Of a stretch of DNA of 64,000 nt, positions 52,078 to 57,081 are shown piece after piece. Positions within the stretch are counted from its first letter, which is position 1. Each line of letters starts with the position of its first letter. The notes beneath the pieces are model-generated. The model saw only the letters and a list, made by a program, of their open reading frames with translations. It made no database searches and was not told the DNA's origin. The stretch spans positions 1,242,501-1,306,500 of the forward strand of contig NZ_CP054394.1 of assembly GCF_022539405.1 (NCBI RefSeq), in the 5' to 3' direction. The translations under genes and the position numbers were made by a program. Source of the DNA: Natranaerofaba carboxydovora. Lineage in GTDB: Bacteria > Bacillota > Natranaerobiia > Natranaerobiales > Natranaerofabaceae.

Positions 52078-53067
52078 TTAAAAAAGAATAGCTTCATTAT
52101 TTTTATTTGACTTTAGGTATTTTTTATAATTATCCAAAGCAACTTTGGGTGAAATGTTAGCATAGCAATAAATACATTGATGCTTACAAGTGTCATATTG
52201 ACCGATGTCTTTGCTTATTATGCAGCCACAAATATTCCTTTGTCCTTTATCTTTAAGCTTATGATAGCCCTTCCCCAAAAAGTCAAGCAACTCATTATCT
52301 TGGGCAAAATTTCTCATGATTAGTTCATCGTCAATACACTTATTTTTTTTAATCCCATACTCTGTTAAATCGACTTCTTCAGAACAAGTTGCTATTTCTA
52401 ATTTCCAGCCTTCATTAATTTTTTGTAACCCTTCTGCGATTTTATGTTTCTTCTCAGTTGCAAATTCTTCATAAAAAATATTATTAGCTCTAAAATTATT
52501 CCTAACCTTCCTATATTTTGTAATATCAACAAAACTTATCACAAGCTTATCGGTATAACTATTTAGTTCATCGCCAACTTCTTTTATTTTGTTCAAAAGA
52601 AGATCAACATCAATTTTATCCGTTAAAATTAAAGGATCAAATCTCCAAATTATATTTTCTTTGCCAATTTTTTTAGAAAGCAATTTAAACGTTTCAATTC
52701 TTTCCTTAAGGCTTCTTAGTCCAGGTTCAAACCCTTCATTCTCATAATCATTTAAAGTAAATGTAAAATAATAATTGATATTTCTTTCCTGCAATCTATC
52801 TAGATGTTTTATTATAGGACCTGCATCTTTTGTCCAAAATACAATCAATCGAGATTTGTCAAAGGATACATACTGAGGTTTTCCATTGAAGGGATTTATC
52901 CATTTAATATATCCTTCCTCTAACCTGTTAAAAAACCACTCAGAATAAAATGCCGGGATATCTGTAGAACGACTCGCTGTAATTATTACAGGGGCAACAC
53001 CTTCCACCTTCCCCTCTTTTGTCTGTATCTCTACCCTACTCCACTTGTTCGAACTCATTCTAACCAA
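52078..53067 (-). CDS. DUF1848 protein with C-terminal iron-sulfur motif
   Basis: A 329-residue protein. It opens with VIITASRSTDIPAFYSEWF, then WTKDAGPIIKHL, and ends with CGCIISKDIGQYDTCKHQC, then IYCYAN, a Cys cluster resembling the radical-SAM iron-sulfur site but placed at the C-terminus, as is known for this family. Activity unknown. Start is TTG 53067 or ATG 53058; spacing does not decide. Its upstream region carries two sequences also found in the cofG/regulator intergenic region. Confidence 0.82.
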   Translation of the reverse strand: MVRMSSNKWSRVEIQTKEGKVEGVAPVIITASRSTDIPAFYSEWFFNRLEEGYIKWINPFNGKPQYVSFDKSRLIVFWTKDAGPIIKHLDRLQERNINYYFTFTLNDYENEGFEPGLRSLKERIETFKLLSKKIGKENIIWRFDPLILTDKIDVDLLLNKIKEVGDELNSYTDKLVISFVDITKYRKVRNNFRANNIFYEEFATEKKHKIAEGLQKINEGWKLEIATCSEEVDLTEYGIKKNKCIDDELIMRNFAQDNELLDFLGKGYHKLKDKGQRNICGCIISKDIGQYDTCKHQCIYCYANISPKVALDNYKKYLKSNKNNEAILF

Positions 53068-53305: not shown

Positions 53306-53346
53306 AATATATAGAGCTCTCACTTATAGTGAGAGCTCTATATATT
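53306..53346. repeat. 19-bp perfect inverted repeat after the DICT gene
   Basis: AATATATAGAGCTCTCACT and its exact complement are separated by three bases. It follows the DICT-like gene by 5 nt. No U-run follows on the minus strand, so it is a strong 3' hairpin rather than a textbook terminator. Confidence 0.7.
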
Positions 53347-53351
53347 TACTA

Positions 53352-53894
53352 TCACTTACAACTTGCTATAACATCATCTAAAAGCTCTTTTGCTTGTTTA
53401 ACCACATCGGGATTATTGCATTTTGCTCCTTTGAAATTTCGTTCTTTTTCTATCTCATGCGTTCCAAATCCGTCAAGATCATAGGCTACCATCATAGATT
53501 TAGCAAGGGGTTGATCAATTACCAAAAACCATTCTCTTTTTAACTTGTGGTTTTGAGGTAGGTAAATAAATTCAATGTTTGGGTGTTCTTTTAATTCATC
53601 ATCCTTCTCTCCAAAGATATATACCTTATCAACATTATCAGCTATTGTCAAAAAACGGTCCCATATATCCCTAGCTCTTGATACTTTCTGAAATCCTGCA
53701 TATACTACCGCTTCTGTTTTTTTCTTTAATAAAACTTGTTCCATGATGTAGCACATTTTCTCTAACTGCGGCACTTTAGTTTCATATTTTAGGGAGGTAG
53801 AATTCAACTTTTCTTCCCCTGCGTCTTTTCCTAACTTCTCTACCTCTCCATCTACCCTGGAAAAAATCTCTTCATACAATGAAACCTCTTTCAT
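53352..53894 (-). CDS. DICT-domain-like sensory protein
   Basis: A 180-residue protein. The core (YAGFQKVSRARDIWDRFLTI, then VDKVYIFGEKD, IEFIYLPQNHKLKREWFLVI and VAYDLDGF) resembles the DICT sensory domain found with diguanylate cyclases, two-component proteins and in light-related cyanobacterial and haloarchaeal regulators. No output domain is attached. It is the third gene of the cofG-cofH unit (14 nt after cofH), which makes a link to deazaflavin or light sensing plausible. AAAGGAGG precedes the ATG. The domain call is from pattern recognition only. Confidence 0.55.
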   Translation of the reverse strand: MKEVSLYEEIFSRVDGEVEKLGKDAGEEKLNSTSLKYETKVPQLEKMCYIMEQVLLKKKTEAVVYAGFQKVSRARDIWDRFLTIADNVDKVYIFGEKDDELKEHPNIEFIYLPQNHKLKREWFLVIDQPLAKSMMVAYDLDGFGTHEIEKERNFKGAKCNNPDVVKQAKELLDDVIASCK

Positions 53895-53908
53895 GGTCGC
53901 TACCTCCT

Positions 53909-55015
53909 TTAATAAATAGTTTTTCGTTCTCTTGGGGTACGCCCTAAATCCTTGATAATTCCTTCAATATGAACGGGAGTTAAAAATTCTCCGCTGGTAC
54001 CACCTGCCTCTCTTGTTATGCTCTCGCTGTAAAGAGTACCACCCAGGTCATTTGCGCCTGCCATTAAAGTCAACTGGGCAAACTTAGTCCCATATTTGAC
54101 CCAGGAGGTTTGAATATTATTGATATTATCTAGAAAAAGCCTGGCTATTGCTACCATCAACATATCCTCTCTGCCACTAGAAGGGCTTGTTACCAACCCT
54201 TCCTTATATAATTTTGTATTTTTAAAAACAAAAGAGAGGGGGATGAATTCTGTGAAAGTTTTATTTTCATCCTGTATATCTCTGATTATTTTTAAATGCT
54301 TGATTCGTTCTTCAATTGTTTCTATATGGCCGTACATAATTGTGGCTGAAGCTTTTAACCCAACACAACCTGCGGCTTTGATGGCTTCTATCCATTCGCG
54401 GGCACTAATTTTATCAGGGCAGATTTTGTCCCTTATATTATCATCAAGTATCTCTGCCGCTGTTCCTGGGATTGAATCCAGTCCCGCATCCTTTAGCATT
54501 TTGTATCCTTCTCTAAAGGTAAGTCTACTGTTACGTAATCCATGCTTTAACTCCTCCGGGGTTATACCGTGAATATGTAGTCCTGGTGCAGTCCTTTTGA
54601 TTTCCTCAATAACTTTTATATAATATTCAAGATCGAAATTAGGATGAAGCCCGCTGACAAGGCAAACTTCAGTTATCCCTTTGGAAAGGGATTTAATAAC
54701 AAGTCTTTTTATTTCGTCTATTGATAGTAAATAAGCATCTTTATCTTTACTTGAACGGCTATATCCACAAAATTTACAGCTGTTAACACACACATTGGTC
54801 AAATTAATATTGCGATTAACTACATATGTGACATCGTCCCCGGCTTTTTCTTGTCTTAAAAGGTCGGCCGCCTCTATTACTCGGTAGAAATTTTTGTCTT
54901 TTGCCCTGAAAAGTTTAGCTCCTTCTTCAATATTTAATCTTTCTTTTGCCATGGCTTTTTCAATAATCTCTTCAATCTCCTTGGTTTCAACTACCGGTTG
55001 AACAGCACTTTTCAT
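53909..55015 (-). CDS. cofH: F0 synthase subunit CofH (radical SAM)
   Basis: A 368-residue radical SAM enzyme. The 4Fe-4S motif is CVNSCKFCGY (C-x3-C-x2-C), preceded by VVNRNINLTN. The HGITPEELKHGL, DSIPGTAAEILDD, ICPDKISAREW and SATIMYGHIE segments are those of CofH, as opposed to MqnE/MqnC. With CofG it joins tyrosine and the diaminouracil intermediate to 7,8-didemethyl-8-hydroxy-5-deazariboflavin (F0), the chromophore of F420 and of some photolyases. It overlaps the end of cofG by 29 nt. Confidence 0.92.
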   Translation of the reverse strand: MKSAVQPVVETKEIEEIIEKAMAKERLNIEEGAKLFRAKDKNFYRVIEAADLLRQEKAGDDVTYVVNRNINLTNVCVNSCKFCGYSRSSKDKDAYLLSIDEIKRLVIKSLSKGITEVCLVSGLHPNFDLEYYIKVIEEIKRTAPGLHIHGITPEELKHGLRNSRLTFREGYKMLKDAGLDSIPGTAAEILDDNIRDKICPDKISAREWIEAIKAAGCVGLKASATIMYGHIETIEERIKHLKIIRDIQDENKTFTEFIPLSFVFKNTKLYKEGLVTSPSSGREDMLMVAIARLFLDNINNIQTSWVKYGTKFAQLTLMAGANDLGGTLYSESITREAGGTSGEFLTPVHIEGIIKDLGRTPRERKTIY

Positions 55016-55958
55016 CCAACCACCCCTCTCTTTCCATGCATTCCAAAACTTCTCTAGAAACCCACTTTTGGTTAATGTATCTTGGATAAACAGCTAATCT
55101 TTCTTTTAGCTTATTAGGAGCAAGCTCTTTTTCTAGCGACTTTATAGCAGGCCAGGCAAAATCAGGGTTAATATAGTCGTAGGTTATAGGTGATATTCCA
55201 CCAAGGTCCCTAACCCCACAGTCCAATAAATCCTTTATTTTCTCCAGGTTTGGGGGAACTTGGATCTTTATTTCTTCAGGCAGTATTTGTCGTGCTATAT
55301 GAACCGTCTGCTTTATTGTTTCATATTTAACCGGGGGCATCTTTTCACTTTTTATAGGCTGTATTATCACTTCTTGTATATGTGCATATTTCATGTGCAG
55401 CTTTTTGATGGCTAATAAACTATCTCTTCTATCCTTTTCTCTTTCGCCAATCCCGATTAGTAACCCGGTGGTAAAAGGAATTTTTAACTTGCCAGCGTTT
55501 TCAATAAATTTTAGCCGTTTTTGTGGAGACTTAGTAGGAGAGTATTTGTGAGCAGAAACCTCAGCCGTTGTTTCTAGCATAAGTCCCATGCTGGCATTAT
55601 ATCTAGCAATTGCACCAAGAGTATCTTTATCTATCAAACCTGGATTAGAGTGAGGGAGCAGACCAATCTTTAAAGCTTCTTTACAAATATCAAGGAGTAG
55701 CTCATAAATGCTTTCGTATCCCGTTTTTTGCCTTAGCTTTTCTTTAAAGCCATAAACACTATGAGGTTTTGAACCAAATGTAATAAGTACTTCTTTGCAA
55801 TCAGCTTTTTTTGCCTTTTGAAGAATTCTTTTAGCTTCTTTAAAATCCATAATATTTGCTTTTCTAATATCATCTTTAAAATTACAGTAATAACAGGTGT
55901 CACTGCAGGCAGTAGTCAAAGGCAAAAAAACGTTTTTTGAAAAAGTGATCTCAGGCAT
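54987..55958 (-). CDS. cofG: F0 synthase subunit CofG (radical SAM)
   Basis: About 323 residues. The radical SAM site is CSDTCYYC, followed by ADCKEVLITFGSKP, PHSNPGLI, GLMLETTAEVSAHKYSPTKS and LDCGVRDLGGISP, all typical of CofG. ATG 55958 is placed 9 nt after GGGAG; a TTG three codons upstream is too close to it. First gene of the unit, divergent from the B12-type regulator. No cofC, cofD, cofE or photolyase gene is visible in this window. Confidence 0.92.
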   Translation of the reverse strand: MPEITFSKNVFLPLTTACSDTCYYCNFKDDIRKANIMDFKEAKRILQKAKKADCKEVLITFGSKPHSVYGFKEKLRQKTGYESIYELLLDICKEALKIGLLPHSNPGLIDKDTLGAIARYNASMGLMLETTAEVSAHKYSPTKSPQKRLKFIENAGKLKIPFTTGLLIGIGEREKDRRDSLLAIKKLHMKYAHIQEVIIQPIKSEKMPPVKYETIKQTVHIARQILPEEIKIQVPPNLEKIKDLLDCGVRDLGGISPITYDYINPDFAWPAIKSLEKELAPNKLKERLAVYPRYINQKWVSREVLECMEREGWLDEKCCSTGS

Positions 55959-56000
55959 TAGGATCAACTCCCAATCAAACGGACTTAGTAAGTTTTGATA

Positions 56001-56054
56001 TTACATTGTGTGCATTGATTACATTATGTGCTTTGATTATATTGTATATCACGT
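56001..56054. promoter_or_regulatory. Three 18-bp direct repeats over the cofG promoter
   Basis: TTACATTGTGTGCATTGA (56001-56018) and TTACATTATGTGCTTTGA (56019-56036) match at 16 of 18 bases; a third, weaker copy runs 56037-56054. The third covers the -10 box, the second the probable start site and the first the early leader of the cofG transcript, so bound protein would repress cofG. Tandem direct repeats are also how CarH binds its operator. Confidence 0.7.
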
Positions 56055-56069
56055 ATTGTAATAATTCAA
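56041..56069 (-). promoter_or_regulatory. Promoter of the cofG-cofH-DICT unit
   Basis: On the minus strand TTGAAT (56064-56069), a 17-nt spacer, then TACAAT (56041-56046). Transcription would start near 56034, about 75 nt before the cofG start codon. Confidence 0.72.
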
Positions 56070-56089
56070 GAGTGAGATTTCATTTTGTT

Positions 56090-56118
56090 TAGATAAAATA
56101 TGCAAAATGTGATATAAT
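56090..56118 (+). promoter_or_regulatory. Promoter of the B12-type regulator gene
   Basis: A perfect TATAAT (56113-56118) with TG one base upstream (extended -10), and a weak -35, TAGATA, 17 nt before it. The box GTGATATA (56109-56116) overlaps this -10 and is the inverted form of the octamer in repeat 3. Confidence 0.65.
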
Positions 56119-56166
56119 TAAATAAAAGATAAACGAAAAAAGAAAGATAAACTGGAGGTATTAGTT

Positions 56167-57081
56167 TTGGCTGATTTTGCCACAAGACTAAAAAAGCTAA
56201 GGAAGGGTAATAACATTATGCAAAAAGAATTAGCCAAGGAATTAAATTTGGTCCAGACGACAATAGCCAATTATGAAAAAAATCTTAGATTTCCGAACCA
56301 GGAGAATTTAACCAAAATAGCAGATTATTTTAATGTTTCTTTAGATTATTTGCTAGGAAGAACAGACATAGCTGTAAATAGTTTAGAACTTCTAAAAGAA
56401 AACGAAAAAAAGATTAATGAATTAAATCTGGATAACCCCCACTCTTCTTTAATGGAGAGTTATTTGCAAGCATTACTAGAATGCAACAAAGAAAAAGCCA
56501 TCAATTTAATACACGAAGCTATAAAAGAGGGGATTTCTCTTGAAGATATTTATTTGTATGTTTTTGAGCCTGCCCTCAAAAAAATTGGTTATCTTTGGGA
56601 AAAGGCTGAAGTAACTGTAGATGAAGAGCATTATTGTACAGAACTAACAAAACAGCTCATGTCTAGGTTCTTTTCTTATATGAATAAGAATTCTACTAAA
56701 AATTATACTGTGGTTTCAGTTTCTGCCAGCGGAGAATCACATGATGTGGGCCTTAGGATGATAACAGATATTTTAGAGCTAGATGGTTGGAATGCATATT
56801 ACTTGGGGCCAAATACTCCAACAGAAAATATTATTAATGCAATTGCAAATAACAAGGCAGAAATTTTGGCTGTCTCTGTAACAATGCTTAACCATATAGA
56901 AACTGCTAAAAACTTGATAGAAGCTGTTCGAAATAATCCAAACAGTCAGGGGGTAAAAATACTGGTAGGTGGAAAAGCTTTTAACCAGAAACAAAATCTG
57001 TGGAAAAAAATTAGGGCCGATGGTTATTCTGACAGTCTAAAAAACGTGCGAAAAGTAGCTAATGAGTTAATTAACCAATGA
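56167..57081 (+). CDS. XRE-type regulator with CarH-like cobalamin light-sensor module
   Basis: A 304-residue protein. Residues 7-62 are an XRE/HTH_3 DNA-binding domain (MQKELAKELNLVQTTIANYE), not the MerR type of CarH/LitR. Residues about 95-170 form the four-helix B12 cap with W144-x9-E154-H155, the Wx9EH signature of CarH-type photoreceptors. From about 180 comes the B12-binding fold with E190-x-H192-x-x-G195, a later SxxL-like SVTML and the VGGKAF loop. In CarH, adenosylcobalamin gives dark tetramers on DNA, and light breaks them. The residue after Trp is Glu, where T. thermophilus CarH has the His that ligates cobalt after illumination. TTG start, GGAGG 8 nt upstream. Light sensing is inferred from motifs. 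Confidence 0.83.
   Translation: MADFATRLKKLRKGNNIMQKELAKELNLVQTTIANYEKNLRFPNQENLTKIADYFNVSLDYLLGRTDIAVNSLELLKENEKKINELNLDNPHSSLMESYLQALLECNKEKAINLIHEAIKEGISLEDIYLYVFEPALKKIGYLWEKAEVTVDEEHYCTELTKQLMSRFFSYMNKNSTKNYTVVSVSASGESHDVGLRMITDILELDGWNAYYLGPNTPTENIINAIANNKAEILAVSVTMLNHIETAKNLIEAVRNNPNSQGVKILVGGKAFNQKQNLWKKIRADGYSDSLKNVRKVANELINQ

Follow-up and report, generated by a model that had tools for sequence, protein, structure and literature searches.

Introduction

Several light receptors are built on a cobalamin-binding domain (CBD). In CarH/LitR of Thermus thermophilus the CBD is joined to a MerR-type DNA-binding head, the gene diverges from light-related genes, and carotenoid genes and photolyase are the targets. 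CtMerR of Chloracidobacterium thermophilum (PDB codes 8JBS/8JBT) also has a MerR head, and the photocobilins (SasPcob and AbDPcob; 8J2W-8J2Y) carry bilin-binding or GGDEF partners. Here we describe a locus of Natranaerofaba carboxydovora in a stretch of 64,000 nucleotides (the window, positions 1242501-1306500 of a single-contig, 3.26-Mb genome, hereafter the home genome). The gene for a CBD protein with an XRE head (XRE-CBD, the regulator) diverges from a cofG-cofH-DICT unit, which encodes the two subunits of the synthase for F0, a pigment absorbing blue light, and a short, stand-alone DICT protein.

The SignatureFinder study (PMC11796333) found that the motifs GxxW, EH, GxxH and GxxxP mark light-responsive CBDs, with tests on purified proteins, and listed fusions of such light receptors with helix-turn-helix (HTH) domains. 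The target of the regulator is therefore more of a surprise than its swapped head. Two uses of F0 are established, in F420 and in photolyase (PMC8498797). The DICT domain was earlier predicted to be sensory, a prediction cited in PMC8612252. It occurs in long proteins such as DICT-HD-GYP phosphodiesterases (e.g. in Microcystis, PMC7063779), from which the window protein differs in standing alone.

Results and discussion

The regulator

The regulator exceeds the Pfam cut-offs for HTH_3 (50.3 bits, residues 8-62), B12-binding_2, the four-helix cap (58.7 bits, residues 96-166), and B12-binding, the Rossmann domain (66.6 bits, residues 181-286). The head is of the HTH_3/HTH_19 (XRE) type and the Pfam search gave no match to a MerR-type DNA-binding domain. 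Matches in PADLOC and PHROG were set aside, as they concern the generic XRE head only.

All four light motifs are present, as G141xxW144, E154-H155, G189xxH192 and G214xxxP218. A first-pass annotation of this DNA had noted W144-x9-E154-H155 and E190-x-H192-x-x-G195 on an XRE-headed B12-binding module and proposed a CarH-like sensor. The residues and the domains are as it described, and W144, E154-H155, E190, H192 and G195 are invariant in the two homologues with a matching gene arrangement, from Natroniella and Thermohalobacter. The Natroniella homologue, beside cofGH, retains all four motifs; that of Thermohalobacter has a single motif change, the glycine of GxxH to serine. The proposal holds in that the CBD is CarH-like and carries a different head, but the closest relatives are CtMerR and the photocobilins rather than CarH.

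CtMerR (8JBS) is the top match in a sequence search of the PDB (70.3 bits, 1.4e-18) and the photocobilins follow, whereas the best non-photoreceptor corrinoid chain, 4JGI, scores 43 bits and the best methylamine corrinoid protein 42. A predicted structure of the regulator (mean pLDDT, the predicted local distance difference test, of 80.8, built from only 3 sequences) also ranks 8JBS/8JBT first in a fold search, where template modelling (TM) scores on the target reach 0.76. A tree of 49 CBDs groups the XRE-CBDs in a single clade (support 95/98) outside the methyltransferase-corrinoid clade (97/96); CtMerR, SasPcob and Thermus CarH, on long branches, are not firmly placed with respect to it. A B12 module nearer to the methyltransferase corrinoid proteins, the outcome that the first-pass annotation had set against its own proposal, is contradicted by the sequence search, the fold search and the tree. 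Among NCBIfam models the score is slightly higher for pyl_corrinoid (TIGR02370, 71.3 bits, cut-off 215) than for the TransRegCarH equivalog (62.6 bits, cut-off 400), both being far under their cut-offs.

The regulator shares with CtMerR the CBD fold, the four motifs and the lack of a histidine after the tryptophan, but the CBDs are only about 23% identical and the target genes differ. With CarH it has in common a DNA-binding head on a CBD, divergence from light-related genes and, as argued below, a probable repressor logic; it differs in head, in lacking the light-state histidine ligand and in having F0-DICT genes as target. The photocobilins have the same light motifs on their CBD, with other partners in place of the XRE head. 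Judged by domains and motifs, the regulator is a variant on the known B12-photoreceptor type. It is predicted to bind adenosylcobalamin (AdoCbl), and light is probably the signal that it senses.

Promoters and operators

A 15-bp palindrome, approximately ATNACANNNTGTNAT, is common to four intergenic regions in which an XRE-CBD gene is divergent, those of the home genome, Natroniella, Thermohalobacter and genome G342. The two-site palindrome search scored 118, against 77 +/- 3.1 (maximum 84.5) in 30 dinucleotide shuffles. There is one copy per target promoter, placed in 4/4 loci at an identical register within the 17-bp spacer that separates the -35 and -10 elements (Table 1). When a matrix was trained on the three other loci, the two best of the 64,000 window positions were 56048 and 56018. 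None of ten control regions contains the operator; eight of these are promoters taken from cofGH, RibU or DICT operons that have no XRE-CBD gene beside them. The promoter-operator composite, with one mismatch allowed, has a single match in the 3.26-Mb genome, at cofG. Operator 2 sits in an 18-bp tandem direct repeat (56000-56035), which might recall the direct-repeat operator of CarH, yet only the palindrome recurs at other loci and that candidate was rejected.

An operator inside the spacer points to promoter occlusion, hence to repression rather than activation, and the weaker operator 3, which lies in the promoter of the regulator gene itself, suggests that the regulator controls its own expression. 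On this evidence the regulator very probably controls the cofG-cofH-DICT operon.

Table 1. Features of the locus (window coordinates) and spacer operators of the four loci
Feature	Position	Strand	Sequence	Basis or remark
Regulator gene (XRE-CBD)	56167..57081	+		304 amino acids; HTH_3, B12-binding_2 and B12-binding domains
cofG, F0 synthase subunit 1	54987..55967	-		TIGR03550 378 bits, cut-off 213
cofH, F0 synthase subunit 2	53909..55015	-		TIGR03551 447 bits, cut-off 374
Short stand-alone DICT gene	53352..53894	-		180 amino acids; PF10069 57.9 bits, cut-off 23.8
Terminator-like hairpin directly 3' of DICT gene	53306..53347	-		-28.8 kcal/mol, z -7.9
cofG promoter, operator inside 17-bp spacer	56041..56069	-	TTGAAT-17-TACAAT	sequence pattern
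Putative regulator promoter	56090..56118	+	TAGATA-17-TATAAT	sequence pattern
Operator 1, palindrome between cofG -35 and -10	56048..56062		ATCACGTATTGTAAT	best of 64,000 positions
Operator 2, just downstream of cofG -10	56018..56032		ATTACATTATGTGCT	second best of 64,000 positions
Operator 3 (weaker), in regulator promoter	56099..56113		TATGCAAAATGTGAT	9.0 bits; palindrome fit
Spacer operator, home genome			TTGAAT-TATTACAATACGTGATA-TACAAT	
Spacer operator, Natroniella			TTGACA-TATTTCGTAATGAGTAG-TATGAT	
Spacer operator, Thermohalobacter			TTGAAT-TATTTCATTTTGTGTAT-TATAAT	
Spacer operator, G342			TTGCAT-TACTACAAAATGTGATA-TATAAT	

Conservation of the arrangement

The short DICT alignment, scanned against 84,980 named genomes, gave eight loci. 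In Natroniella sulfidigena (L095) the layout is identical to that of the window, with the XRE-CBD gene divergent from cofG-cofH-DICT. In Thermohalobacter berrensis (L099) it diverges from a RibU-like gene and DICT, the former replacing cofGH. Since the arrangement recurs in these two species together with the common operator, it is no chance neighbourhood, and the coherent control of an F0-DICT operon that had been suggested earlier gains support.

Full-length XRE-CBDs are rare (four proteins in three of 399 genomes sampled from the phylum). Two of the four, a paralogue in the home genome and a protein of G001, do not adjoin F0 genes and have lost the EH motif. The home paralogue (L039:6996-7877; C1:1505998-1506852) reads SDVS at this position, keeps GxxW and GxxH, and is perhaps no longer light-responsive. 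The XRE-CBD of G342 (L132:7383-8279) has the full light signature as well as the common operator, and its gene diverges from a chemotaxis cluster made up of cheY, cheX, cheA, cheW, MCP, cheR and cheB-like genes, the che names being assigned by sequence reading; light-controlled chemotaxis is possible there.

Other CBD proteins were observed. A family of about 360 amino acids, nearest kin of the XRE-CBDs, has an N-terminal half of no recognised type and W/EH light motifs (L133-L139, L141, L142, L117, L118, L126); in Firmicutes its genes often precede apparent PAS, histidine kinase or other signalling genes. In the home genome (L040:4288-8805) a KatG-like catalase-peroxidase gene is followed by that of a 376-residue CBD protein with GxxW and EH and then by a GGDEF protein gene, another candidate locus for B12-based light or oxidative-stress signalling, where the sense of cyclic di-GMP (c-di-GMP) signalling would be opposite to that of DICT-HD-GYP. 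In G089 (L140:3595-6543) a CBD gene is split by an open reading frame resembling a mobile-intron reverse transcriptase.

The operon and the use of F0

CofG, CofH and the DICT protein exceed their curated cut-offs (Table 1), in agreement with the first-pass description of the divergent unit, and the NCBIfam scores assign CofG and CofH to the F0 synthase families. The genes are compactly arranged. The last 29 bp of cofG are shared with cofH, DICT starts 14 bp past cofH and a Shine-Dalgarno sequence can be read for each gene of the locus; ATG 55958 is a likelier start for cofG than TTG 55967. The hairpin, matched in stability by 0/200 shuffles, is a putative terminator that closes the operon. No Rfam riboswitch was found at the locus. 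Downstream of the operon, at 52078-53067, lies a DUF1848 gene, and a similar-looking protein is encoded near the RibU-DICT genes of G002 (L082:15986-16903), which may be chance.

What does F0 serve in this organism? The earlier suggestion of F420 or photolyase does not hold. The best CofD match in the home genome, probably YvcK-like, scores 26.8 bits against a cut-off of 257 and neither photolyase family, PF00875 or PF04244, is represented; with no CofD over the cut-off and no photolyase, both established uses are largely ruled out here. The operon thus resembles those that make F0 for F420 or photolyase in its CofG and CofH and differs from them in having DICT as the partner. CofD exceeds the cut-off in none of the 12 genomes with a short DICT gene. 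Photolyase is present in seven of these 12, and is absent from four of the seven cofGH genomes (home, G177, Fuchsiella and Natroniella) and from Thermohalobacter; for CofD and photolyase alike, these absences are subject to the completeness of the genomes accessed by named locus, for which no figure is given. The neighbourhoods of the short DICT genes, as far as they were read, contain no photolyase gene.

The association with DICT is close. In the phylum sample CofG is over the cut-off in 3/399 genomes and DICT in 6/399, and in all three CofG genomes a short DICT gene directly follows cofH (hypergeometric p ~1e-6). Seven of the 12 short-DICT loci adjoin cofGH (the window, G177, Fuchsiella, Natroniella, Halanaerobacter, Salsuginibacillus and Alkalicoccus), four adjoin a gene for a RibU-like S-component of an energy-coupling factor (ECF) importer (G002, which belongs to the same order as the host, G227, Clostridium frigoris and Thermohalobacter), and the remaining one, near a contig end, adjoins neither. 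Two of the RibU-like proteins were compared with the solved RibU 3P5N and match it at 8e-24 and 2e-22. The short DICT proteins encoded beside cofGH or a RibU-like gene are orthologues with 51-77% identity. Synthesis thus alternates with uptake beside one small protein, a pattern typical of a protein that uses the product, and F0 is the molecule that fits both routes. From neighbours and co-occurrence we think it rather likely that the short DICT protein uses F0. The DICT gene, treated as an add-on in the first-pass annotation, is the conserved core of the module. On plasmids no DICT relatives were found, and plasmid-borne cofG (haloarchaea, Thermomicrobium) has no annotated DICT neighbour.

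The DICT protein and its possible partners

The short DICT protein has no output domain in Pfam. Its AlphaFold2 model (pLDDT 92.3) resembles the PLD-like fold of NucT, PPK1 and the TrmB sugar-binding domain (best E 6.8e-5, TM 0.46-0.56), a predicted likeness that neither supports nor excludes F0 binding. Candidate partners are suggested by neighbouring genes. In each of Fuchsiella, G002 and G227 the gene beside short DICT encodes a long DICT signalling protein, identified as DICT-HD-GYP by Pfam for Fuchsiella and by sequence reading for the other two. In two Bacilli (L100:3346-7528, L101:895-5038) the first gene of the cofGH operon encodes an MCP-signal protein, and the short DICT gene diverges from this operon; these loci are candidates for F0-based phototaxis. 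The home genome encodes a DICT-HD-GYP protein amid sensor kinase, response regulator and GGDEF-like genes (L088:9563-10840; C1:226595), which may act together with short DICT.

A two-layer model and its alternatives

The reading that we favour, by a modest measure, is a light system with two layers, an XRE-CBD switch and an F0-DICT sensor, in Firmicutes that are halophilic or alkaliphilic. In the first layer the XRE-CBD would bind AdoCbl and in the dark would sit, as a dimer or tetramer, on the palindromic operators of the cofG spacer and its own promoter, where it would keep out RNA polymerase. Upon illumination the Co-C bond of the cofactor would break and the oligomer would rearrange in the manner of CarH or CtMerR, which would derepress the operon. 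In the second layer CofG and CofH would make F0 (8-hydroxy-5-deazaflavin), which the co-translated short DICT protein would take as ligand or chromophore. F0-DICT might then relay a blue-light signal to DICT-HD-GYP phosphodiesterases, acting on c-di-GMP, or in Bacilli to the chemotaxis-type MCP. Organisms that lack cofGH would import F0, or a flavin, through the RibU-like S-component encoded beside the same DICT gene. The first layer draws on motifs, conservation and the operator, the second on neighbours and co-occurrence. The boldest form of the model, in which DICT is a deazaflavin (F0) photosensor domain with F0 made or imported beside it and supply gated by a B12 photoreceptor from a new family, the XRE-CBDs, so that a green-light repressor switches on a blue-light sensor acting on c-di-GMP or chemotaxis, we consider evenly balanced.

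Several points weigh against the two-layer reading. In Fuchsiella, G177, Halanaerobacter and the two Bacilli no XRE-CBD gene adjoins the cofGH-DICT operon. Riboflavin rather than F0 could be the substrate of the RibU-like importers. CofG screens can miss divergent members, as the Synechococcus elongatus control fell under the cut-off although cofG is reported in that organism. The fold search detected no likeness of DICT to the deazaflavin-binding antenna domain of photolyase, and the papers found, in a search that did not extend to preprints, report no DICT ligand. Several hosts of these loci are anaerobes. CtMerR crystals illuminated without oxygen undergo cleavage of the Co-C bond but do not monomerise, and in TtCarH monomerisation is effective only with oxygen (PMC11796333), so that the switch could need oxygen besides light. 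Finally, where TtCarH has His132, the second ligand of the light state, the regulator has Glu145, as had been pointed out in the first-pass annotation. This is not fatal, because CtMerR has arginine there and still passes from tetramer to monomer in light; across CtMerR and the photocobilins the residue is Arg, Gln or Tyr and the second axial histidine is absent (PMC11796333).

The signal might be other than light. CBDs serve enzymes too, and the photo-response of TtCarH depends on redox state and oxygen (PMC11796333; PMC10442372). The regulator could therefore sense cobalamin supply, or redox and oxygen, through its occupancy by AdoCbl or cob(II)alamin, with F0-DICT as a redox or stress module. 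The loss of EH in the two paralogues implies that the family is not tied to one signal. Yet beside F0 or RibU-DICT genes the adenosyl-contacting W/EH/H/GxxxP set is kept, bar the glycine to serine change in Thermohalobacter, and HaAI-2E, a negative control lacking the signature, did not bind AdoCbl (PMC11796333); moreover cofGH do not need B12 and the target makes a light-absorbing pigment. We judge this explanation unlikely. An F0 antenna for photolyase, controlled by a CarH-type regulator as in the photolyase clusters that are linked to CarH, has in its favour that Thermus CarH lies two genes from photolyase and that over half of the short-DICT genomes have a photolyase. The absence of both families from the home genome, G177, Fuchsiella, Natroniella and Thermohalobacter, and of photolyase genes from the parts read around short DICT, largely refutes it for the home genome and makes it most improbable.

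For the DICT protein two other roles deserve consideration. FO crosses membranes readily by diffusion (PMC8498797) and short DICT has no output domain; it could be a carrier or storage protein that prevents leakage of F0, or an antenna for a partner, rather than a sensor. This is doubtful given the long DICT signalling protein that comes next in three genomes, the MCP-signal protein at the start of the opposite operon in two Bacilli and the earlier sensory prediction cited in PMC8612252. Flavins are common chromophores and the importer is a RibU homologue, so DICT might instead bind riboflavin or FMN, with F0 destined for some unrecognised enzyme and cofGH and RibU adjoining DICT for different reasons. 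Most cells make riboflavin, which would give no reason for cofGH to lie next to DICT, the two occur in one operon in every CofG genome of the sample, and there is neither an F420 pathway nor, in the home genome, a photolyase; we regard flavin binding as improbable.

Implications

With this locus the B12 photoreceptors gain a branch that has an XRE head and a palindromic operator, which would be useful for optogenetics. The locus also brings together two strands, namely a domain that is predicted to be light-linked and for which the literature searched gives no ligand, and a pigment that outside F420 synthesis is known from photolyases. A layer of light response is thereby suggested in salt-lake Firmicutes, including anaerobes, that are not known for photobiology. 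If DICT does bind F0, it would represent a new kind of photosensor and a signalling use of F0 beyond photolyase and F420.

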